From Sulfurimonas sp. (GTDB lineage Bacteria; Campylobacterota; Campylobacteria; Campylobacterales; Sulfurimonadaceae), in NCBI GenBank assembly GCA_030949945.1, contig JAUZRZ010000060.1, positions 28,195-92,194 of the forward strand: a DNA stretch of 64,000 nt, in the 5' to 3' direction. Below, piece by piece: positions 31,122 to 45,654 of the stretch; the first letter of the stretch is position 1; each line of letters starts with the position of its first letter. The position numbers were made by a program, and so were the translations under genes. The notes under the pieces were generated by a model. That model worked only from the letters and a program-made list of their open reading frames with translations. It was not told the origin of the DNA and made no database searches.

Positions 31122-31463
31122 TTATTGCATCTCTAAACTCATGAGGTACATATCTTCCCCATCGAGTACTTTCACACTTAGACTTTCGCATTTTAAACAG
31201 TAGTAACGCACTTCATCGACTTCAAAAATATTACCACACTCTTTACACTCTAGTTTTAATTTTTGCACATTTTGGACTAACTCCGCGTTTGCACACATAG
31301 TTCCCTCTTTAAATGTATCAAAGGCAACTTGTAAAAGTTGTACTTCTATGCCAGACATTACTCCGATTTTTGTTATCACTCTGTTGACTACTGTAGCCTT
31401 ATTACTCTGCGCTATCTCTTCACACTGATTTATTAATGCTTGTACGACACTGTACTCATGCAT
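31122..31463 (-). CDS. hypA: hydrogenase nickel incorporation protein
   Basis: MHEYSVVQALINQCEE; CKECGN...CLKCES zinc site. Confidence 0.95.
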   Translation of the reverse strand: MHEYSVVQALINQCEEIAQSNKATVVNRVITKIGVMSGIEVQLLQVAFDTFKEGTMCANAELVQNVQKLKLECKECGNIFEVDEVRYYCLKCESLSVKVLDGEDMYLMSLEMQ

Positions 31464-33103
31464 GCAAATTCTCCTTAGTTAATGTTATTAATCTTTTAGG
31501 TGTCTCTCTTGGACAGACCTTATGTACAAAATCATACCGAAGAGCATGAAAAGGGCTTGAGTCTTGCCAAAATTCAGGATGCATGACTGCTAACTCTTCC
31601 TCTTTTTTCTGCTCTATCATAGCTCTGTTTTCTTCAAGGTAATCCTGTTTATCCCATATAAATTCACTATCATATTTTGAGAGTGCATAATTATGTAAAT
31701 CTTCGTAATAGCTATTAGCCTTAAATACTTCATCTATCATTTTACAAGATTTTGCTCTCTTTACTGATAGGGGTAAGCATGACTCTAGCATCTCATCTGC
31801 CTGCGTTTGTCCTACTCGTTTTGGGAGTGTATAGGTATGGTACTCACTTCCACTGAGTCCTAATGTTTTATAGTGAGGATTTAAAACAACCCCCTCTTTT
31901 GCTACAACATAGTCACAAGCAAGACCCATAAAAACACCACCAGCTCCAGCATTTCTTCCAAAAGAAGCGATAGTTACAACTTCGTCTGCATAAATAATGG
32001 CTGAGACTAAATCGTTCATAGCATTTATGTTCGCCCAACCATCTTCACCTTTTTTTTGTGAATCTTCTAATATATTTAAGTGTATCCCATTGGAGAAAAA
32101 GTCCATACCCCCAACTAAAACAAGTACCTCACACTCAGTTTTGAGATACTCAACTGCATACTTTAAACGTATACATTGTGCCGTACTCATGGCACCATTA
32201 TGAAAGTTAAAACAGAGATAAGCGACACTGTCTCGCATCTCCATACTGATTTCATAAAAAGTATCATAAGATTTATCAAAAATTAGAGGAAGTCTTAGCT
32301 CTTTAACTCCCTTGAAGTTTCTCTTTAAGTACATAAGTTGCAGGAAGTTTAAAACCACCGAGTTCTTTTAAGTGGCTTATCCATACAGCCCCATCAAGAG
32401 TTCCCACACAGATAGCACCATCGCGTTTTGCAAGTATCTCTTTTACATCACCTTTTAAATTAGCTTCAAGATGTGCACCATAAAGATAACAACTCACACC
32501 CAGTATCTCATCTAAAACACCAGGAAATGAGTCTGAGAGGTGAATTTTTCCGACTATAGTTTTTGTAGTGTCCCTACTCCAATCAATTTGACGAGAAGCT
32601 TGTGTAAACTTTTCATGAATAGGATTTAAAATCTGTGGTATTTTTGTACCTGTTTGTAAATTTTTAAAAAATAGATTTAAGGCTTCAATTGAAGCTTGTG
32701 TTACCTCTTGTCTATAGAGTGAAGCCTTATATGTATCTCTTACTTTAAAATCAACTTGTGCATAAATATCGCCACCATCATACTCTTCGTTCGCTCTCAA
32801 AATCACTACACCCCACTCTTTGGTATGGCTTACAAGTGCATACTCTAAAGAGTTTGGACCACGATCACCTCTTGGACCTGGATGAAAAATATATGTTGGA
32901 TAGGAGTCATAAACAGAAGAAGGAAGATAAAACTTTAAAAATGGACATAAAATAATCTCTGGTTCAAACTCTTTAACTTCTGCTAGTATCTGCGTTTCAT
33001 TGATAGCAAAACAGACAGAGACTCTATGTTCTCTGTCTTGGAGGTAAGTATAAACTCCCTGCGTTTGTGAATTAAATGCAGTAACTAAAAGCAGTATTTT
33101 CAT
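31456..33103 (-). CDS. hypX: hydrogenase maturation factor HypX/HoxX (formyltransferase domain + enoyl-CoA hydratase domain), frameshift at ~32320
   Basis: N-ORF 32303-33103: FHPGPRGDRGPNSLEYAL...QIDWSRDT; C-ORF 31456-32358: GGMDFFSNGIHLN, SFGRNAGAGGVFMGLACDYVVAKEGVVLNPHYKTLGLSGSEYHTYTLPKRVG. Confidence 0.88.
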
Positions 33104-33112
33104 TTAATATTC

Positions 33113-34107
33113 TTAGCAAATTCTTGGTAAGAGTTCACCTGTTGGTAAATCTAAAAAGCGTTTTGTTCCCCATGAAGAGTTAAGTAAAACTTTTCCTTTG
33201 TACTGATGCGTTACAGTAGCAATAAGAGCAGAGCTTATATGTCTCTCTTGTAGTAAAGAGAGTGCTTTTTCTTCATCCTCTTTTGGCACACAAAGAACAA
33301 ATGTTCCCTCATTTGCCAAATCAAGAGCCTCAAAACCGAGCATCTCACAAATACCTTGTACTTCCTCAGCAACAGGAATAGTCTCTTCTTGAATCTCTAT
33401 ACAAACATCAGAACTCTTAGACCACTCATTTAAAACAGCACTGACACCGCCACGAGTAGCATCACGCAGTGCTACAATAGTAATGCCTGAGTCAATCAAT
33501 ACTTTGACTTGTGGATAAAGTGAGGCACAGTCGGTTTGAAGACTACTCTGTAACTCCATTCCCTCACGTGCTGCAAAAATAGCTGCCCCATGTGCACCAA
33601 TATCACGACTCACTAAAACACTCATTCCCTCTTTTAAAGCAGATGCACTAATTCCTTTGTACTCTATCTCTCCAATAGCGGTAGTGTTTATAAATAGCTT
33701 ATCAACAGCACCTTTTGGTACCACTTTTGTATCTCCACTCACGACTATTGCACCGTTTATCGCAAGCTCATCTTTCATAGATTTAACTATTTTTTCTAAG
33801 TCTCTTGTAGCAAAACCCTCTTCTATGATAACAGAACAGGTCATATACTTTGGTCGAGCTCCCATCATCGCTAAATCATTACAAATGTTCCACATATAGA
33901 CAACTTCCCTATATCTCCACCATTAAAAAAAAGAGGACTTACGGTAAAACTATCCGTTGTAAACGCAAGTTTTCCATCTTCAATAACAGCAGCATCTTCA
34001 CTTTTATCTAAAATATCATTTTTAAAATTCTTATAAAAAATCTTCTTTATGAGTTCATTACTTTCTTCACCACCATTTCCATGTGCGAGCGTAATGGTTT
34101 TTGTCAT
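33113..34107 (-). CDS. hypE: hydrogenase expression/formation protein HypE, frameshift at ~33895
   Basis: ITLAHGNGGEESNELI...TTDSFTVSPLFFNGGDIGKLSICGT then MWNICNDLAMMGARP; C-terminus LPRIC-stop. Confidence 0.95.
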
Positions 34108-35236
34108 ATTAAATTCCCATACTTATAGTAAGCAGCGCAAGCACCCTCACTACTCACCATACATGAGCCAATAGGAGTACTAGGCTTGCATGCTGAACCA
34201 AAGATAGTACACTCTTTAGGTTTTGCCATACCACGAAGTATATCGCCACATATACAGAGTTTGTGATCTTCTATCTCAGCCATAGGAAGCACATCTTTAT
34301 ACTTCACTTCTGCATCAAACGCAGCAAACTCAGGACGCAAACGCAGTCCACTATCAGGTACATTTCCGAGTCCACGCCATTTAAAAAGGCTTGTTTTTTC
34401 AAAATAGGTATTGATTAAAGCTTGTGCTTTTAGGTTACCATCATGATTTACAACTCTTTTATACTGCACTTCTAGTTCGCATCTCTTCTCAACAAACTGT
34501 TTGATTATCATCGAAATACCCTCCATTGCATCTACTGGCTCAAAACCAGTTACAACTACAGGGCGTCCATAATCTTTTGGGAACTTATCATATATTTTAG
34601 AACCACTTATTACGCTTACATGGCTTGGTCCTAGAAATGCATCTATTTGATTATTGTAAGAGTCAACATGCACATCACGACTATCGATAAGTTCAACCAT
34701 AACCTCTGGTACTGTTACATGGTTTATATGAAAAAGTAAGTTAGGTATTTTTTGCTTTATAGCTTGTTCAACCACTACTGCTGTCATCGTGGGGCTACGT
34801 CTCAAAAACCTATAGCAAAAAGCTTGTTATCAGCTGCTATTTTTAAGCACTCCATAGGAGAGTAAACAAATCGAACATCCGCACCTTTTGCTCGTGCATC
34901 TTGCAGACTTCCATTACTTCCTGGTACTTTTATCATGTCACCCAAAGTTACTAAAATCACATTCTCTTGCATAGAGAGCACATAAGCATGGTCGATTCTC
35001 TCTTTTGGCATAATACATACAGGACAGCCTGGACCATGAATAAAGTTTACATTTGCAGGTAAAAGCTGTGGGAGACCAAACTTCATAATAGTATGAGTAT
35101 GCCCACCACAAACTTCCATGATATTTATCGGTTTTTCGAGTTTTTTGGCATCTTGTGCAATGATTTTTGCATAGGCTTTAATAGTCTCTCCATCACGAAA
35201 ATCATCATAAAGATTTTTCAGTTCTAGTTGTGACAT
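34104..35236 (-). CDS. hypD: hydrogenase formation protein HypD, frameshift at ~34803
   Basis: MEVCGGHTHTIMKFGLPQLLP, HGPGCPVCI, then FHINHVTVPEVMVELIDS, PVVVTGFEPVDAM, CICGDILRGMAKPKECTIFGSACKPSTPIGSCMVSSEGACAAYYKY. Confidence 0.95.
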
Positions 35237-36564: not shown

Positions 36565-36813
36565 ATGAAACAACCTGTTTGTGTAACACTTGAAAAAGGA
36601 AAGACCTATCATTTTTGTACTTGTGGTAAAAGTGCTAATGGTGTTATCTGTGATAACTCTCATAAAGGTAGCGAATTTGTACCAGAAGAATTTATAGCAA
36701 CTAGGAATGCTGGTTCTTACTTATGTTTATGTAAAAAAACGCAGGGTCCTCCCTACTGTGATGGAACACATGCAAGACCTGAAAAGTTAAATTTAGATTT
36801 TTTACTTGAGTAG
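36565..36813 (+). CDS. dual CDGSH-type iron-sulfur domain protein
   Basis: CTCGKSANGVICDNSH and CLCKKTQGPPYCDGTH. Confidence 0.9.
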   Translation: MKQPVCVTLEKGKTYHFCTCGKSANGVICDNSHKGSEFVPEEFIATRNAGSYLCLCKKTQGPPYCDGTHARPEKLNLDFLLE

Positions 36814-39021
36814 TGTAGAAGCAATTTGACCCAAAGCAATTCCTCCATCATTTGGAGGGAATCTGTTTCCTATGATTGCATTTGGAAACTTATCCAAGAC
36901 AAGCTCTAAAAGTACCCTATTTTGAAATACTCCTCCTCCAAGAACAATTGGAAGTTCATAATCTTTATATACTGCACTGATAATTTCAACGAGAGTATGA
37001 AAAAATTTACTCACAGCAACACTTTTACTCTCTTGTAAAATAATCTCCTTAATCATAGGCTCAATATCAATTATATCATCCTTATAAGTAAAACTGTAAG
37101 TACCTTTGACTCCCTCATCATACAAGGCTTCAAGCATCATCCCACTCTCGCCCTCATAGCTCATTATATGAACTATCCCAAGCAGTGAAGCCACACCATC
37201 AAAAAGACGCCCTACAGAGGAGCTTAGAGGTGCATTTAAAGAGTTTTTCCATGCTACAAAGTAAGTATTTAACTCTGTCTTTGAAAAAGCCTTTATTGCT
37301 GGAGTATCTAGGCTAAGTGCCTCTCTTCCAAAGCAGTCAAAAAGTAGGCTGAGTGCCACTCGTTTTGGCTCTTTGATAGCTTTTGCTCCACCTAAGAGTT
37401 TAAAGTATTTTATGTGTGCTACTCGCTCATATCCTGCATAATCACAAGTCATAAACTCTCCGCCCCACAAATGCTTATCCTCTCCATATCCAGTTCCATC
37501 AAAGACTACACCAAAAACTCTCTCTTGTAACTTCTTCTCTGCCATTACACCAAGTATATGTGCATAATGATGTTGGACTGCATTTGTTGTTTTTTTGGTT
37601 TTGAGTGCTAACTTTGTGCTCTCATAGTTTGGATGTTTATCATGAATAAGCACATCAGGCTCAAAATCATAAATGCGCTTCAAAGTTTGTATGTTTTTTT
37701 CATAATGCTCTACTGAACTAATACTGTTTAAATCACCGATATGAGGAGAGAGAATAGCCTTATCGTCCATTGCAATTGCTATAGTACTTTTTTGATTTGC
37801 ACCCATAGCTAAAAGATTATTTTTTGTTTTAAAGGGAAGTTTCACACTTGTTGGTGCGTATCCTCGTGCACGTCTAAGCATAATCTCTTGCCCCTTAACT
37901 ATCATCATCACTGAATCATCACAGGCATTCACAATTATCCGGTTATGCTCTAAGATATAGTCATAAATTCCTTCTAGTTTTTGTATCTCTTCTAAGCTTG
38001 TACAGATGGGGTCATCACTAAGGTTTGCTGATGTTACAACTAAGGGAGTTTTGAGTTTATCTAGCAGTAAAATATGTAATGGAGTATAAGGTAGCATTAA
38101 ACCAATGTAGGAAATATTTGGTGCAATTAAATCATTTTTACAAAGTGCCTGTAGTAAAACTATAGGGCGTTCTTTAGAGAGAAGTAATTTCTCTTCTGCT
38201 TCTGAGATTTTTGCTAAACTTTTTACCATTTTTATATCTTTAACCATCAGTGCAAAAGGTTTTTTAGCTCTTTTTTTTCTCTCTCTTAATCTTTTTATAG
38301 CCTCATCATTACCAGCATCACAAACAAGATGATACCCTCCAACACCTTTTATGGCAAAAATATTTCCCTCTAAAAGTAAATCCACAACCCTTTGGGGTAT
38401 ATCTTTTTGTTGAAGTGGTGTGTATTTATTAGTTGCATCAAGGAGTTGTAGTTTTGGACCACAATCAAAACATCCAATAGGCTGTGCATGGTACCTGCGA
38501 CTTAGTGGATTTGTGTACTCTTGGCTACACTGCTTGCACATCTCAAACTCTTTCATAGAAGTGTTCTCTCTATCATAAGGTAAATCATAAATCATAGAGT
38601 ACCTTACACCACAGTGAGTACAACTTATAAAAGGATAGTTAAAACGGCGATTTTTACTATCAAGTAGTTCTTTTTCACACTCTGTGCAAGTATATATGTC
38701 AGGGGGAATATCAGCACTAGATTCGCCATTCACCTCAGAATCTAAAATCTCAAAAGAGGTAAATTTTTCGGTTTTTATTTTTTGTGTAGTAATATTGTCA
38801 ATGAAAGCTAAAGGAGGAAACTCTTTTTCTATCTTTTCTAAAAAAATGTCTAATATTTCGGGAGTGGTTGTAACACTTATCAATACCCCTTGAGTATTGT
38901 TAAGTACACTGCCATAGAGGTTTAATGAAGTAGCTAATGTATATATAAAGGGGCGAAACCCAACCCCTTGGACTCTTCCTCTTATCTCAATTTTATAAGT
39001 AAAGTGCCCCATATACCGCAT
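36802..39021 (-). CDS. hypF: carbamoyltransferase HypF
   Basis: GRVQGVGFRPFIY, CxxC zinc fingers, QHHYAHI, DGTGYGED, GGGVFQN. Confidence 0.96.
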   Translation of the reverse strand: MRYMGHFTYKIEIRGRVQGVGFRPFIYTLATSLNLYGSVLNNTQGVLISVTTTPEILDIFLEKIEKEFPPLAFIDNITTQKIKTEKFTSFEILDSEVNGESSADIPPDIYTCTECEKELLDSKNRRFNYPFISCTHCGVRYSMIYDLPYDRENTSMKEFEMCKQCSQEYTNPLSRRYHAQPIGCFDCGPKLQLLDATNKYTPLQQKDIPQRVVDLLLEGNIFAIKGVGGYHLVCDAGNDEAIKRLRERKKRAKKPFALMVKDIKMVKSLAKISEAEEKLLLSKERPIVLLQALCKNDLIAPNISYIGLMLPYTPLHILLLDKLKTPLVVTSANLSDDPICTSLEEIQKLEGIYDYILEHNRIIVNACDDSVMMIVKGQEIMLRRARGYAPTSVKLPFKTKNNLLAMGANQKSTIAIAMDDKAILSPHIGDLNSISSVEHYEKNIQTLKRIYDFEPDVLIHDKHPNYESTKLALKTKKTTNAVQHHYAHILGVMAEKKLQERVFGVVFDGTGYGEDKHLWGGEFMTCDYAGYERVAHIKYFKLLGGAKAIKEPKRVALSLLFDCFGREALSLDTPAIKAFSKTELNTYFVAWKNSLNAPLSSSVGRLFDGVASLLGIVHIMSYEGESGMMLEALYDEGVKGTYSFTYKDDIIDIEPMIKEIILQESKSVAVSKFFHTLVEIISAVYKDYELPIVLGGGVFQNRVLLELVLDKFPNAIIGNRFPPNDGGIALGQIASTLLK

Positions 39022-40921
39022 TCTCCTTGCCCATAGGAAGATTTTTATTTGTCAGTGGTTTATACTGTCCTATTGTTTTTTGTATTCTAGCATAGAGTGA
39101 TTGATTTGCAAATGTTTCTCCCGTAAGTATTACAGTATTTGTTTTTACTTTCTCTAAAAGCTGAGGGATAATTTCACCAATATAGTCTCCAAATGATTCA
39201 TAAATACTATAACACATATAGTCATTTTCAACATCTCCTAGCTGATAACTCATAATACTTGTTAAAAACGCATAATTATCAAAACGATTATCTTTAACTT
39301 TTGTATCAATCTGTAGACCACCTTTACCTAAAAAGCTGAGTGCTTGAGCTGAGATACCCTCAAAACTTTCATCTTCTAAACCAAGAGTAATGGCTGTCAC
39401 TTCAAAAATATCCATATCCCCCTCTAAGTTATCAAGTCTTTCCCAGATTTCTGGATATGCTTTTTTATAGTTTCCTACAAGTCTGTCTGAGCCATCTCTT
39501 AAAGTACTTATCTTTTCCCATAAGTTGTCTGACTCAAAATCTATTGCAGGTACTGCGTTTATAACCTTTGTGCCATTATAATATAAAAAGTTTAGTGAGC
39601 CATCAAAGTGAACACCAACAGCTTTTTGTCCTAACTTTCCATGTTCTGCAATTACTGAAAGCATTGATGCCTCATATTGATTAAACTGTTTTTCATGAGC
39701 AGCTTCTGTCTCTAAATCTTCATTCTCGTAGATATATATTTCATCTGCATGTATTGCATCAAAAATTTCTAAGGAATCTATAATATTATTTCCTTCTACA
39801 TTTACACAGGCTAAACCATGTGCAACACTCACCCTATTTATAGCACTTTGAACTTGTGTCGGATATAAAACTCTCTCCCCTGAGACAAAAAGTGTGACAT
39901 CTTGGTTAATAAATATTTTTGTGTCTTTTTGTGTCTGAATTGGCATATCAAAATCCACTAAAAAGTCTGCATCTTCATTCTCATCACACTCTTTATAAGC
40001 GATATAATCAAGTCCAGCCGATATAACCTCCTTTGCTAGTAACATAGTCATACCCTCATCAGGGTACTTTACTAAAACAGATGAGCCATAAAGTTCTTTA
40101 AGCTCATCACTTTTTGTAGCAACTCTAAGAAGAGGTCTCTCTATACTCAGCAGAGCATTAAACTCCTGTTCTACTATCATTAAGTGAGTATTTATAGCTG
40201 TTGCAGATGCTATTAAAAGTGTTGTGCCACTTACTAAATCTTTATTGTTTTTTGGATTAAAAAACTTTCTGTAACCATGTTGTGTTTTCATTAGCACACT
40301 TTTTCCAGCGGCAACAGCACCTCCACTCACTTCAAAAAGTTTTCTAAAGTCACCTTTATTATGGGCTAGATGTTCACTCTCTTTATCAAGCATTCTAATA
40401 GATATTCCACATTCAATACATGAAATTAGTTTATAATCTAGGCGCAGTGCATTCACTTTTGCCTCATTCTCACACTCTTTACATGGAACAAGAAACTTCA
40501 TTGTGGTATTAGCACGCTTATATGGATACTTCGTTAAAAAAGGATGTTGTGAACCACAGTTGTTACAAGAGGTAAATGGGTAATAATAGCGGCGAGATGA
40601 GACATCAAACATCTCTTTTTGACATGTAGGACAGGGTGCAATGTTTAAAGGTAATTCTACCTCATTTATTGGGGCATATAGTGGTTTTTCCTCACTAAAA
40701 TAGTGTTTGCTTTTTCCTAAAAAAAGTGATGAGGGGAGAATCTCTTCTAAGCCTAATAAAAAAGACTCAAGTTTTTCATCTTCCTGATTACAAATTAAAA
40801 TAATTTTTTCATTTGTCTGAAGGACTTCAGCCATTATCTCTTTTTTGAGAGCAAAAGCTCGAATAAGTTGTGTGATATAATTTTTGTTTGATGAAAATTC
40901 CATTTCAAAGATAAAATACAT
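38993..40921 (-). CDS. hydE: degenerate HypF paralog, HydE-like hydrogenase accessory protein
   Basis: HypF-like zinc fingers (CPTC-x18-CNNC, CKEC...CIEC), YrdC-like and Kae1-like segments; downstream of hydABCD as in Campylobacterota hydABCDE. Confidence 0.75.
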   Translation of the reverse strand: MYFIFEMEFSSNKNYITQLIRAFALKKEIMAEVLQTNEKIILICNQEDEKLESFLLGLEEILPSSLFLGKSKHYFSEEKPLYAPINEVELPLNIAPCPTCQKEMFDVSSRRYYYPFTSCNNCGSQHPFLTKYPYKRANTTMKFLVPCKECENEAKVNALRLDYKLISCIECGISIRMLDKESEHLAHNKGDFRKLFEVSGGAVAAGKSVLMKTQHGYRKFFNPKNNKDLVSGTTLLIASATAINTHLMIVEQEFNALLSIERPLLRVATKSDELKELYGSSVLVKYPDEGMTMLLAKEVISAGLDYIAYKECDENEDADFLVDFDMPIQTQKDTKIFINQDVTLFVSGERVLYPTQVQSAINRVSVAHGLACVNVEGNNIIDSLEIFDAIHADEIYIYENEDLETEAAHEKQFNQYEASMLSVIAEHGKLGQKAVGVHFDGSLNFLYYNGTKVINAVPAIDFESDNLWEKISTLRDGSDRLVGNYKKAYPEIWERLDNLEGDMDIFEVTAITLGLEDESFEGISAQALSFLGKGGLQIDTKVKDNRFDNYAFLTSIMSYQLGDVENDYMCYSIYESFGDYIGEIIPQLLEKVKTNTVILTGETFANQSLYARIQKTIGQYKPLTNKNLPMGKENAVYGALYL

Positions 40922-41085: not shown

Positions 41086-41235
41086 TAACTGATGTTACGG
41101 ACTTTCTTAAAAACCTTTTTTATAGCTTTAGGGGTTATAGGACAAGATGTCCCGACTATAAGGGCTTCTGGCACTAATGCCGACCCCGTCATAAAGTGTA
41201 AGTGTGGTGTTGCCTATGGTCCGTAACATCAGTTA
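41086..41235. repeat. 150 bp fold-back element with perfect 17 bp terminal inverted repeats (copy A)
   Basis: TAACTGATGTTACGGAC (41086-41102) and GTCCGTAACATCAGTTA (41219-41235); core GCTTTAGGGGTTATAGGACAAGATGTCCCGACTATAAGGGCTT shared with copy B. Confidence 0.75.
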
Positions 41236-41786
41236 TAACTAGCAACAGTAGGATTAGCAGATGACTCAATAATTGCTTCATAAGAAACATGCGGTGAGTT
41301 TTTTCTAACAAGGTTTATATCAGATTTTTTTAACTCATCTAATGTAGCATCAAGAAGTTTTGGCATATGTTCAAGTGCTTCAGGTGTAAGTCCATTTTTT
41401 ACTTCGATAATATCATGAGGAACCATAGTGATAAGTTGTACTTCCCCCATATCTTCATGAAAAGTACAAATCTCAATCATCATCGTAATTTCAACTTCAT
41501 TAGCAGTTTTGCGAGTAGCACCCTCATTTGACATTACTTCATCAGCATTTTCAGAACTAATAGTTCCAACAGGACCCTCTTTTGAACCTGTTCCAACTAC
41601 AATTACCTTATCATACTCTTGATAATATGTCATCAGACTAAATCCAAGTGTACCACCTTCAACAATTGTAAGATTTTGAGGTTTCTCATAGTTCTCTTCA
41701 ATATACTTTACTAAGTAGGCACCAAGTCCTTCATCATGAAAAAGAATATTTCCAATGCCAATAAGTGCTATTTTTTCTAGTGCCAA
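41229..41786 (-). CDS. hydD: hydrogenase maturation protease HydD
   Basis: LIGIGNILFHDEGLGAYLVKYI, EGGTLGFSL, MVPHDI; directly downstream of hydC. Confidence 0.92.
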   Translation of the reverse strand: MALEKIALIGIGNILFHDEGLGAYLVKYIEENYEKPQNLTIVEGGTLGFSLMTYYQEYDKVIVVGTGSKEGPVGTISSENADEVMSNEGATRKTANEVEITMMIEICTFHEDMGEVQLITMVPHDIIEVKNGLTPEALEHMPKLLDATLDELKKSDINLVRKNSPHVSYEAIIESSANPTVASYN

Positions 41787-41814: not shown

Positions 41815-42597
41815 CTAAGCTTCTGTACCATTTTTATCTTCTTTTACAAATTTACTACCGCCAACAACAATAGCGATATCACCCTCTTGCCAGAAAATAG
41901 TTCTCCATACTTGATAGTATACATGAAATGAAATCCAAGCAAGTACAAGCCACATCGTAATGTGATGAGAAATACGTACATCCATTAGAGAAGGTGTAGG
42001 TCCACTTCCAATTAAAAATGATGAAACTGGAATAGTCCAATCAGTCACTAAGTGTAACACAGTAGGCCACCAAGTACCAACACTACTTAGTCCAGAAGCG
42101 AGTCCATGAACATACATCTGAAGACCTGTAAAGAGCATCCATCCTATTAAAAGGTGAAATATTGCAAAATAAACAGTATTAAAACTATCCGCATGTGTAG
42201 AATCAAAATTCTTCACACGGTTTAGAGTAAATAAGTTTACTAAAACAGCACCAAACTCTTTTATGTTTTTAGCATTAGGTAAAAGCTTTTTATAAGGCTT
42301 TTCAAAACGTGAAAAGAAATATAAATAAGCAATTACAATAGAAGTCACATCAAAAATAATTGCCACCATAAAGTGACCCCATCTATTCCATGCCATTACA
42401 TATTTATCTACTGCATCTTCATCCATAAATGCAGCATAATAAGGCTCTGCGATATAGAGTCCGGTAGCAACAGCTACCATCATACTAAAAACATTTACCC
42501 AGTGGATAATTCTCATAGCCCCTGTCATTCTCTCGACTTTTGTATATCCTTCTTTAGTAGACATTATAGCCTCCTTAGAATGCACAAGTAGGGTCAA
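41815..42597 (-). CDS. hydC: [NiFe] hydrogenase cytochrome b subunit
   Basis: TGAMRIIHWVNVFSM, multiple TM segments, IHWVN...FHVYYQVW. Confidence 0.92.
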   Translation of the reverse strand: MTLLVHSKEAIMSTKEGYTKVERMTGAMRIIHWVNVFSMMVAVATGLYIAEPYYAAFMDEDAVDKYVMAWNRWGHFMVAIIFDVTSIVIAYLYFFSRFEKPYKKLLPNAKNIKEFGAVLVNLFTLNRVKNFDSTHADSFNTVYFAIFHLLIGWMLFTGLQMYVHGLASGLSSVGTWWPTVLHLVTDWTIPVSSFLIGSGPTPSLMDVRISHHITMWLVLAWISFHVYYQVWRTIFWQEGDIAIVVGGSKFVKEDKNGTEA

Positions 42598-44419
42598 CTT
42601 TATAAGTAGCTAACTCCTTACCTTGTGTATCCATGATATGAACAGAACATGCTATACATGGATCAAAACTGTGAACCGTTCTAATGATTTCAAGTGGCTC
42701 TTCAGGATTTGCAACAACTGTTCCTATAATTGCTGCTTCATAAGCACCAACTTCTCCATTAGGTCCACGAGGTCCAGCATTCCATGTAGAAGGAACTACA
42801 GCTTGGAAGTTTGCAACTTTACCATCTTTAATTCTCATCCAGTGACCAAGTGCCCCACGTGGTGCTTCAGATAAACTTCTACCTTTACAATCAACAGATA
42901 CTTTATCAAAATCAAAATCTTGCCAAGTTCTTAAATCACCACTTGCTGCATTTTTTGCGAGTTCAGCAGCCCATTCAACCATTGCATCACCAATCATTTC
43001 AGTCTCAATAGCACGTGCTGCTGTTCTACCAACTGTAGAAAAAAGTACCGTTAAAGGTAAACCTGAACGTTTAAGGAAATTACCAGCATACTTAATAGTA
43101 CGCTTATCTCCCCCAACATAACCAACAACTATACGAGCAAGAGGACCAACTTCCACTTTTTTACCATCATAAAGAGGAGATTTTATCCATGAATACTTCT
43201 CGTCAGTTTTAAGATATGCATATCCATCATCTCTTTTGTCAAGTCCTGTATATTTAGGAATAGTAGTTCCATCATAAGGATGCTCTGGAGCACCAGTACC
43301 CTCATACCATGAGTGTGTTACATCTTCTGTAACTTTTGTCTCATCTAGTTCATGTAGTTTTGAAATATCTCCATCAAGCACTACTCCACTTTTAAAGAAT
43401 GTCTCAGCATTATAAAAACCTGTATCATCAAGTCTAAAGTCTCCATAAGCCATATAAGAAAGGATACCACCACCAGTACCACCAACAGCTTTTCCTAATG
43501 CACCTTTATGATTACTTGCATGGAATGTTGCATTACCATCAGTAGCCTCAGCAGCATACATAGTACCAGCCATATAAATATCTGGAAGATAAGCACCTTT
43601 AATAAACTCATTTGTCTCTTGTAGCAATTGTTGAAAAAGAGCAATACGTGCAGGATTTTGAATATCTTGAACACATGTAACACCACCAACTACTAAAGAT
43701 TGTGGGTGCGGATTTTTACCACCAAAAATTGCTTGCATTTTTGCCATTTCTCTTTGCACATCAAGTGCTTTAAGGTAGTGGGCTACACCAATAAGGTTTT
43801 GTTCAGGTGTTAATTTATAGTTATTGTTACCCCAGTAACCATTTCCAAAGATACCTAAACGACCCTCTTTTACAAACTTAATAATACGATCTTGAATTGC
43901 TTTAAAGTCAGCAGCTCCAGAGATAGATGGTTTATGACCTGCTACATCTGCCCATTTTTGTGCTTCTTTTGCAGTAGCTACAGGATCTGCTTTAGTTGCA
44001 TCTACCACATCAACAAAGTCTAGTGCATGTAGATGGTAAAAGTGAACCAAGTGATCATGCACATACAGACAACCCTGAATAAGGTTACGAACTAAACGAG
44101 CATTTTTTGGAATTGTTATATCAAATGCATCTTCAACTGCTTCAATACTTCTTTGGTAGTGTGTACCTGTACAAACACCACAAATACGCATAGTCATTAG
44201 ACCAACATCTCTAGGGTCACGACCTTTTACTATTGTCTCAATTCCTCTAAACATAGTAGAAGATGAATAAGCATCAATAATTTTATTGTTACTATCAATT
44301 ATTGCTTCTATTCTTAAGTGTCCCTCAATCCTTGTTATAGGATCGACAATTATATGTTTGTTTCCATTTTCATCAGTTGTATGAAAATTTCCATCTTTGT
44401 TATTGTGTTTTCTTGACAT
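42575..44419 (-). CDS. hydB: [NiFe] hydrogenase large subunit (group 1)
   Basis: DPITRIEGHLRIE, RICGVCTGTHYQRSIEA, SFDPCIACSVHIMDTQGKELATYKVDPTCAF. Confidence 0.97.
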   Translation of the reverse strand: MSRKHNNKDGNFHTTDENGNKHIIVDPITRIEGHLRIEAIIDSNNKIIDAYSSSTMFRGIETIVKGRDPRDVGLMTMRICGVCTGTHYQRSIEAVEDAFDITIPKNARLVRNLIQGCLYVHDHLVHFYHLHALDFVDVVDATKADPVATAKEAQKWADVAGHKPSISGAADFKAIQDRIIKFVKEGRLGIFGNGYWGNNNYKLTPEQNLIGVAHYLKALDVQREMAKMQAIFGGKNPHPQSLVVGGVTCVQDIQNPARIALFQQLLQETNEFIKGAYLPDIYMAGTMYAAEATDGNATFHASNHKGALGKAVGGTGGGILSYMAYGDFRLDDTGFYNAETFFKSGVVLDGDISKLHELDETKVTEDVTHSWYEGTGAPEHPYDGTTIPKYTGLDKRDDGYAYLKTDEKYSWIKSPLYDGKKVEVGPLARIVVGYVGGDKRTIKYAGNFLKRSGLPLTVLFSTVGRTAARAIETEMIGDAMVEWAAELAKNAASGDLRTWQDFDFDKVSVDCKGRSLSEAPRGALGHWMRIKDGKVANFQAVVPSTWNAGPRGPNGEVGAYEAAIIGTVVANPEEPLEIIRTVHSFDPCIACSVHIMDTQGKELATYKVDPTCAF

Positions 44420-45654
44420 TAGTTTACTCCCTCATCATCTTTTTTACCTGCTACTGCACTCGCTGCTGCATGAATACCTATACCAATTCCGGCTGCTGTT
44501 AACAGACCTAAACCAAATTCATCAACTGTTTTCTCAACTCCACCTGTCGGTGCTTTAATATTTGCACTTGCCATTGGTCTCTCATAAGCATACTTATCCC
44601 AGAAATCTGGCTCAGAACAACCAATACATCCTCGTCCAACACCAATAGGCCAGTTAACACCTTCGTTATAACGGACAATAGAACAGTTATTAAATGTCAT
44701 TGGACCTTTACAACCTACTTTATAAAGACAAAAGTTATTTTTTGCACCCTCATCACCAAACTCTTCTACATACTCACCTGCATCAAAGTGTGCACGTCTT
44801 TCACAGTTATCGTGAATACGATACCCAAATGCAAACTTAGGACGTAAAAGAGAATCAAGTTCTGGAATAGTTCCTGTAAGTACATAGTGTAAAATTACAC
44901 CTACCATATTAGATGGGTTTGCTGGACATGCTGGAATGTTAATAATAGGTTTACCTTTAACAACATCCATTACACCAACTGCATCAGTAGGATTTGGGGC
45001 AGCTGCTGGAATACCACCAAAAGTAGCACAAGAACCAACTGCAACTACTGCTGCTGCACCTTCTGCTGCACGGTGAAGATGTTGCTCAAATGTCTCTCCA
45101 CTTGCTCCAATAGTTCCATACTGACCATTCATTCCTAGAGGTACTGCACCCTCTACAAATAGTAAATATTTACCATGAAAATGTTCCATCGCTTCATCCA
45201 TCTGCTTTTCAGCTTGATGTCCTGATGCAGCTTGAAGTGTTTCATGAAACTCAAGAGAGATAATATCTAAAATGATTTCATCAATTTGTGGTCCATCTGA
45301 GCGAAGAAGTGCTTCAGAGTTACCCGCGCAATCTTGAAGTTCAACCCAGATAACAGGTACTCTGTTCATAAGTTCAGCCGCTTTAGCAACTAATGGAGTA
45401 AAAGAAGCAGGTAGCATTAACATAGCTGTTGTTGCTGATGCCCATTTAAGGAAATCTCTTCTTTGTAGTCCTTGTTCCTCAATAGTTTGAGTAAAGTCCA
45501 TTCTGTTGTTTAGTGGTGTGAGTTTTTGCAACTCATCTAAACGGTCCTGACATTTTAAATAAAGGTCATCATAGTATGTATCACCTCTATTAGTATCTAC
45601 CTTAGCACTCTCTGCTGTAAATAGCTTTTTAATTCCATCAATTCTATCGCTCAT
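44419..45654 (-). CDS. hydA: [NiFe] hydrogenase small subunit (group 1), Tat signal
   Basis: RRDFLKWASATTAMLMLP Tat motif; GSCATFGGIPAAAPNPT, PACPANP, GRGCIGCSEPDFWD. Confidence 0.96.
   Translation of the reverse strand: MSDRIDGIKKLFTAESAKVDTNRGDTYYDDLYLKCQDRLDELQKLTPLNNRMDFTQTIEEQGLQRRDFLKWASATTAMLMLPASFTPLVAKAAELMNRVPVIWVELQDCAGNSEALLRSDGPQIDEIILDIISLEFHETLQAASGHQAEKQMDEAMEHFHGKYLLFVEGAVPLGMNGQYGTIGASGETFEQHLHRAAEGAAAVVAVGSCATFGGIPAAAPNPTDAVGVMDVVKGKPIINIPACPANPSNMVGVILHYVLTGTIPELDSLLRPKFAFGYRIHDNCERRAHFDAGEYVEEFGDEGAKNNFCLYKVGCKGPMTFNNCSIVRYNEGVNWPIGVGRGCIGCSEPDFWDKYAYERPMASANIKAPTGGVEKTVDEFGLGLLTAAGIGIGIHAAASAVAGKKDDEGVN

Follow-up and report, generated by a model that had tools for sequence, protein, structure and literature searches.

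HypF, the maturation factor of [NiFe]-hydrogenases that carbamoylates HypE, forms an alpha2beta2 complex with it (PMC12134894). HoxV/HupK, an inactive paralogue of the hydrogenase large subunit, has been proposed to act in maturation as a scaffold dedicated to a hydrogenase that is exported (PMC12134894), and TsaB is a degenerate Kae1-fold paralogue of TsaD that is retained as a non-catalytic partner (PMC9654439). hydE is the last gene of the epsilonproteobacterial hydABCDE operon (e.g. HP0635 of H. pylori and hydE of W. succinogenes); that H. pylori needs it for hydrogenase activity has been known since 2004 without a function, and later papers call its role unknown or not fully understood (PMC7695850). 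The name hydE does not occur (0 occurrences) in a 2025 review of [NiFe] cofactor assembly (PMC12134894). Here we describe the hydE gene found in a 64,000-nucleotide stretch of a Sulfurimonas sp. genome (assembly GCA_030949945.1, contig JAUZRZ010000060.1, positions 28,195 to 92,194; hereafter the window), where it occupies positions 38993..40921 of the reverse strand and encodes 642 amino acids (a.a.). Based on its open reading frame (ORF) translation, profile comparison with hhalign, an AlphaFold2 model and Foldseek searches, we annotate the product as a probable HypF-derived pseudoenzyme.

The RefSeq orthologues in Sulfurovum mangrovi and Sulfurimonas paralvinellae are labelled hypothetical protein. 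The W. succinogenes gene is reportedly required for hydrogenase activity, going by the title of the 2003 paper of Gross and Simon; we found no statement of a HypF origin of HydE in the open literature, and this 2003 paper may hold one. The HydE of [FeFe]-hydrogenase maturation, a radical SAM protein, shares only the name and belongs to an unrelated pathway.

HydE is a full-length homologue of HypF

The initial annotation of the window had proposed that HydE is a catalytically degenerate paralogue of HypF; comparison of profiles, the predicted structure, phylogeny and the mapping of residues all uphold this. Profiles built from 22 long HydE proteins and from 36 HypF proteins align over 596 columns (hhalign E-value 1.8e-37). 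Individual parts of HydE also match the corresponding HypF domains alone and in register: the acylphosphatase domain is matched by the N-terminal 92 residues (E-value 1e-7), YrdC by residues 190-405 (4e-8) and Kae1 by residues 405-642 (2e-8). The YrdC-Kae1 layout noticed earlier is kept. Similarity through the zinc fingers only can be ruled out, since the other domains match HypF on their own and column-reversed decoy profiles do not (E-values 0.13-0.4). Pfam searches of HydE detect two zf-HYPF fingers (2e-14) and HypF_C_2 (8.8e-7), and give no match to Acylphosphatase, YrdC or HypF_C. TIGR00143 (hypF) scores 93.3 bits on HydE, below its curated cut-off of 466.1; the adjacent hypF (36802..39021, reverse strand; 739 a.a.) scores 789 bits and is annotated as an intact, catalytic carbamoyltransferase.

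When searched against PDB with phmmer, HydE retrieves HypF chains only. The predicted structure (pLDDT 92.5, pTM 0.89), which could have turned out to be unlike HypF, instead matches HypF crystal structures best: Foldseek returns nine HypF chains with E-values between 5e-32 and 9e-22 (3vti, 3vth, 4g9i and 3tsp; 4.9e-32 for 3vti), followed by other ASKHA folds at 7e-6 or weaker, and a 510-a.a. HydE that has no zinc fingers gives the same ranking.

Both hhalign and Foldseek thus recover the four-domain order of HypF, which runs along the reverse strand as a degenerate acylphosphatase-like domain (40646..40921; HydE residues 1-92), two HypF-type zinc fingers (40358..40645; residues 93-188), a YrdC-like domain (39860..40357; residues 189-354) and a Kae1-like domain (38996..39859; residues 355-642). 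All eight zinc-finger cysteines are present, in the motifs quoted earlier (C97PTC100-x18-C119NNC122 and C147KEC150-x17-C168IEC171). HypF is the closest known relative of HydE: the two share their fold and the order of their domains from end to end, the spacing of the zinc fingers and the context of hydrogenase maturation, and they are neighbours in the phylogeny.

Loss of the three active sites

Residues at positions invariant in HypF were mapped across 43-78 HydE homologues, and those of all three HypF centres are replaced. In the acylphosphatase-like domain, HypF R23 corresponds to T17 and N41 to Q35; among 78 homologues the Arg position is mostly E, A, K or I, and the Asn position mostly Q, K or R. 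The acylphosphatase signature GRVQGVGFR is absent, as had been claimed, but the domain itself is still there in degenerate form. In the YrdC-like domain the motifs KxGG, KRxxxKP and SAN are eroded, the latter two being lost; L257-S-I-E261-R-P263 is kept, and K212 is retained in the window protein, this lysine being found in 34 of the 78 homologues.

The metal site of the Kae1 domain is described as an HxxH...D motif, alongside the KxR...SxN motif of the YrdC-type ATP/carbamate site (PMC9654439), and its HypF ligands correspond to H133, H137, D156 and D333 of GdmN (PMC9633730). HypF ligands H484, H488, D508 and D725 align with Q415, S419, D440 and K632 of HydE. The metal-binding histidines reported as missing are therefore gone, and their loss is family-wide, since hardly any member keeps HxxH or the last Asp. 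D508 is retained as D440 in the window protein, but is a serine in 50 of 78 homologues. The replacement motifs that had been quoted are all found in the translation: NQYEASMLSVIAE (414-426), DGSLNFLYYNG (440-450) and TGETFAN (600-606).

The eight zinc cysteines are complete in only 20 of the 78 homologues, because of which we regard the zinc fingers as an ancestral relic retained in the lineage of the window. Conservation in HydE is inverted relative to HypF: mean pairwise identity is highest in the Kae1 C-lobe (0.27) and lowest in the zinc fingers (0.09) and the catalytic Kae1 N-lobe (0.11), into which gaps intrude, and 16 columns exceed 0.7 identity in HydE compared with 205 in HypF. Near-invariant residues specific to HydE include S65, S558, E575 and D539, the last an aspartate in 77 of 78 homologues and, at the same position of HypF, always a glutamate; E261 is almost invariant, and G601 of the adenosine loop is invariant.

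Judging from these replacements and the predicted model, HydE should be unable to hydrolyse carbamoyl phosphate, to make carbamoyl-adenylate or to carbamoylate HypE. The opposite pattern is seen in a truncated HypF of the HypF2 type on the Acidovorax plasmid pEP1 (L138:2495-3676, 393 a.a.). Like hydE it is a second HypF-like gene in a hyp cluster and is annotated as a hypothetical protein; unlike HydE it consists of the Kae1 domain only and keeps QHHHAH, the DG motif, GGGCFFN and DAGLALGQ.

Origin and distribution

We built a phylogeny with IQ-TREE that included long and clade-2 HydE (see below) and used HypF proteins of Escherichia, Aeromonas, Cupriavidus, Pandoraea, Embleya, Thermus and a haloarchaeon as outgroup. 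HydE is monophyletic and groups with campylobacterotal HypF (ultrafast bootstrap 100 for both), the support of the campylobacterotal HypF clade itself being just 57. The HydE stem is long (1.9 substitutions per site). Long-branch attraction would be expected to draw HydE to the outgroups, so its grouping with campylobacterotal HypF is informative, and HydE is most likely sister to them; the exact branching order is not informative. The best reading is that HypF was duplicated long ago in Campylobacterota and that one copy became HydE.

A profile search (E-value <=1e-20) finds HydE in at least 322 of 397 Campylobacterota genomes and in 61 of 68 genera; one HydE profile suffices across families of the order. 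Outside Campylobacterota no HydE was found in a pattern scan of GTDB genomes, which reaches close relatives only, or in plasmids; the named relatives with HydE are Sulfurovum, Sulfurimonas and other Campylobacterota. HydE forms two clades that match two clades of HydB. The window protein belongs to clade 1 and is of the long form with intact zinc fingers; clade-2 proteins are shorter and come from two small-genome families (f2 and f3), which we take to include Helicobacter and Campylobacter. The two clades make up one monophyletic family, and epsilonproteobacterial HydE shares with that of the window its place in the operon; the identity of HP0635 rests on synteny.

hydE is under purifying selection, as its ratio of nonsynonymous to synonymous substitutions (dN/dS) is ∼0.07 (0.067/1.03) in comparison with the 89%-identical gene of a relative (L038). 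We considered whether hydE might be a pseudogene; this ratio and its retention in most of the genomes searched rule that out.

HydE accompanies the Tat-exported HydABC hydrogenase

The gene order in the window and its relatives is hydA-hydB-hydC-hydD-hydE-hypF, all on the reverse strand in the window. hydA (44419..45654) encodes the small subunit, with the twin-arginine (Tat) motif LQRRDFLK in its translation; hydB (42575..44419) encodes the [NiFe]-hydrogenase large subunit, as judged by operon comparison with relatives; hydC (41815..42597) encodes the cytochrome b membrane anchor (its orthologue is annotated cytochrome b/b6); and hydD (41229..41786) encodes the hydrogenase maturation endopeptidase, its place agreeing with that in the annotated operon of Sulfurovum mangrovi.

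HydE strictly tracks the Tat-exported HydABC hydrogenase. We classified the hydrogenases in about 80 fetched stretches of DNA, many of them chosen for containing HydE. All 75 HydE-linked operons encode HydC, and a Tat-type HydA is found wherever the HydA ORF is intact; in three seeming exceptions the ORF is extended far upstream or HydA is split. HydE is missing from 32 of the hydrogenases, and a Tat small subunit was detected in just one of these (L101), which is in a genome that has another HydE. In a test of 36 genomes, a HydB of at least 50% identity is present in all 21 genomes with HydE and in none of the 15 genomes without it. Six of these 15 have a near-full or full HypF plus another hydrogenase, and where HypF occurs without HydE there is no hydABC, the large subunits being of cytosolic type or remote only. 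HypF is present as one general copy, whereas HydE is present once per hydABC operon: in three stretches (L078, L081 and L083) there are two hydABC operons and two HydE, one for each, but only one hypF. In L045 a second, more diverged HydE adjoins a second hydrogenase set.

Several other loci are worth recording. HydE-less group-1-like enzymes in eight stretches (L087, L088, L089, L090, L091, L045, L046 and L070) have a HydA of about 810 a.a. with no Tat motif, HydC or HydE; from its sequence, this HydA seems to join a flavin/NAD oxidoreductase part, at the N-terminus, to the small subunit, and hence to be cytosolic. The hydE frame is in three pieces in L056:9043-11016 (second hydABC operon of genome G163) and in two pieces in L066:9013-10781 (genome G036), with neighbouring genes open in both; these may be natural losses or sequencing errors. 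hyd-hyp clusters including hydE are also found on plasmids of Sulfurovum mangrovi (NZ_CP087125.1; L129) and Sulfurimonas paralvinellae (NZ_CP041407.1; L130), with transposase or integrase genes nearby, and the module may be mobile.

Possible roles of HydE

On balance, we think that HydE is probably a pseudoenzyme descended from HypF whose dedicated, non-catalytic task is the maturation of exported hydrogenases. Because HypF carbamoylates HypE and forms a complex with it, a non-catalytic HypF relative accompanying each exported hydrogenase fits a dedicated scaffold. HydE keeps the fold of HypF with none of its three active sites and is under purifying selection, with one HydE per hydABC operon; catalytic HypF would serve all hydrogenases of the cell. 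In the likeliest mechanism, HydE would be a cytoplasmic scaffold on which, before export, the still unprocessed HydA/HydB precursor meets the HypF-dependent iron-cyanide machinery (HypE or HypCDE), such that cofactor insertion and folding would be complete before the Tat system takes the HydA/HydB dimer. That HydE bridges specifically the HypE or HypCDE step is a more tentative proposal, less likely than not to hold.

The role of HydE in Campylobacterota would parallel those of HoxV/HupK and of HupF/HoxL (a HypC paralogue) in Pseudomonadota. HydE shares with HoxV/HupK the trait of an inactive paralogue tied to one hydrogenase class, its inactivity being judged by residue loss and its class from a biased choice of loci. 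HoxV/HupK differs in being derived from the large subunit rather than from HypF, and HoxV carries Fe(CN)2CO. The best reading is that HydE, too, is an inactive paralogue that has come to assist the maturation of one particular enzyme, in this case a paralogue of HypF.

Some observations weigh against this assignment. The Tat-type HydA-HydB pair of L101 (8724-11544; genome G004) is an orphan that has neither HydC nor HydE, with a complete hydABC-HydE operon elsewhere in the genome. The operon count is biased, as most loci were fetched for HydE, and the 36-genome test is less biased but small. HydE, Tat export, HydC and the HydB clade are co-inherited, so that the partner of HydE is indistinguishable among them. 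Mirror-tree correlations point to opposite partners in the two clades: in clade 1 the strongest correlation of HydE is with HydA (r = 0.73, exceeding that with HydB in 98.8% of bootstraps), and in clade 2 HypF and HydB are favoured (r = 0.88 for HydE and HypF). Compared with HydA and HydB, HypF co-diverges less closely with HydE in one of the clades and to about the same degree in the second.

The main rival, although an unlikely one, is that HydE is a Tat-proofreading chaperone, which would bind HydA (its signal peptide or its iron-sulfur assembly state), delay export until the large subunit is loaded, and replace HyaE/HupG/HoxO and HyaF/HupH/HoxQ of other phyla. HydE goes with Tat-exported hydrogenases and is missing where no Tat small subunit was detected, which is consistent with this role, as is the correlation with HydA in clade 1; moreover, a table in PMC7695850 gives membrane localization of the hydrogenase complex as the function of HydE. 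None of 25 genomes searched has HupH_C, a family of accessory proteins for Tat hydrogenases in Pseudomonadota (the E. coli control was positive), and HydE might therefore replace such accessory factors. However, HydA is not the best correlate in clade 2, and a fold derived from HypF would more naturally retain a contact with HypE or other Hyp proteins. The absence of HyaE is not cleanly shown either: a search with PF07449 gave short, partial matches spanning only about model positions 47-104, in ORFs that look like thioredoxins, and the control was also positive in B. subtilis and archaea.

A more elaborate version of the maturation-factor reading, distinctly unlikely as a whole, makes HydE a phylum-specific receiver of the half-built cofactor, parallel to HypC and HoxV and derived from HypF. 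The former carbamoyl-adenylate and metal cleft would be rebuilt around D539, S558 and E575, bind HypE or the Fe(CN)2CO unit, and pass it on to exported hydrogenases only, as a separate route of cofactor insertion.

It is improbable that HydE is a regulatory partner of HypF, forming a heterodimer with it like TsaB with TsaD, such that HypF would need HydE for the cyanide ligands. There is a precedent in TsaB, which is paralogous to TsaD, supports neither metal nor nucleotide and is nevertheless required for activity (PMC9654439); the clade-2 correlation with HypF points the same way, as do the overlap of the two genes in the window and the hypF that many HydE genes have within 3 kb. The initial annotation had taken the overlap of hydE and hypF as suggesting co-translation and possibly a HydE-HypF complex. 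The 29-bp overlap (38993..39021, reverse strand) is real according to the ORF coordinates; a second in-frame hypF ATG lies at 39012, about 10 nt past an AAGGAG, and if hypF starts there the true overlap may be 20 bp. The deduction drawn from it is unsupported as stated, though: hypF lies within 3 kb after HydE in just 52 of 78 cases (some of the stretches end too early to judge), a pair of hydABC operons in one region comes with a pair of HydE but only one hypF beside them, and co-divergence with HypF is not consistently the strongest. TsaB is always found with TsaD, but HydE and HypF are not always together: HypF occurs without HydE in complete genomes with other [NiFe]-hydrogenases, and L088 has hydA-hydB-hydD-hypF-hypBCDE and no hydE.

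Very improbable, in our view, is a neofunctionalised enzyme with a new pocket on E261, D539, S558, E575 and G601 that binds a ligand or nucleotide. The conservation of these residues would fit such a pocket, but conserved columns are few for an enzyme, gaps enter the Kae1 N-lobe, and no library gives another enzyme a better match than HypF. That HydE is still a carbamoyltransferase using alternative residues is extremely unlikely, despite the retained fold and the YrdC-domain lysine in some members: almost no homologue keeps the acylphosphatase Arg and Asn, KRxxxKP, SxN, HxxH or the last Asp, and nothing consistent takes their place.

The neighbouring hyp cluster

The source assembly is 83% complete, in 90 contigs. 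The hyp cluster (31456-35236) contains frame breaks in hypX (∼32310), hypE (∼33885) and hypD (∼34805), and two further ORFs are broken at ∼28080 and ∼30900. None of the three hyp breaks is in a long homopolymer, the broken hypD is the only copy in the assembly, and the hyp genes of the L038 relative read through; the breaks may be assembly errors or real decay. We found no frame breaks between 36.5 and 45.7 kb. The HypX-like gene (31456-33103), made up of formyl transferase and enoyl-CoA hydratase-like parts, is located within the hyp cluster, which suggests that the CO ligand is made under oxic conditions. A small ORF on the forward strand (36565-36813) encodes a CDGSH-type iron-sulfur protein, and it converges on and overlaps the 3' end of hypF; its homologue in L045 adjoins the ∼810-a.a. 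HydA.

Implications

An inactive sibling of HypF tied to exported hydrogenases would turn an orphan gene into a testable one, with regard to its binding partner and to a cofactor intermediate. HypF would join the Hyp factors (HypA and HypC) that are known to yield hydrogenase-specific paralogues, the paralogue being in this case a pseudoenzyme and not a functional copy. Helicobacter and Campylobacter rely on operons of this type to use hydrogen.

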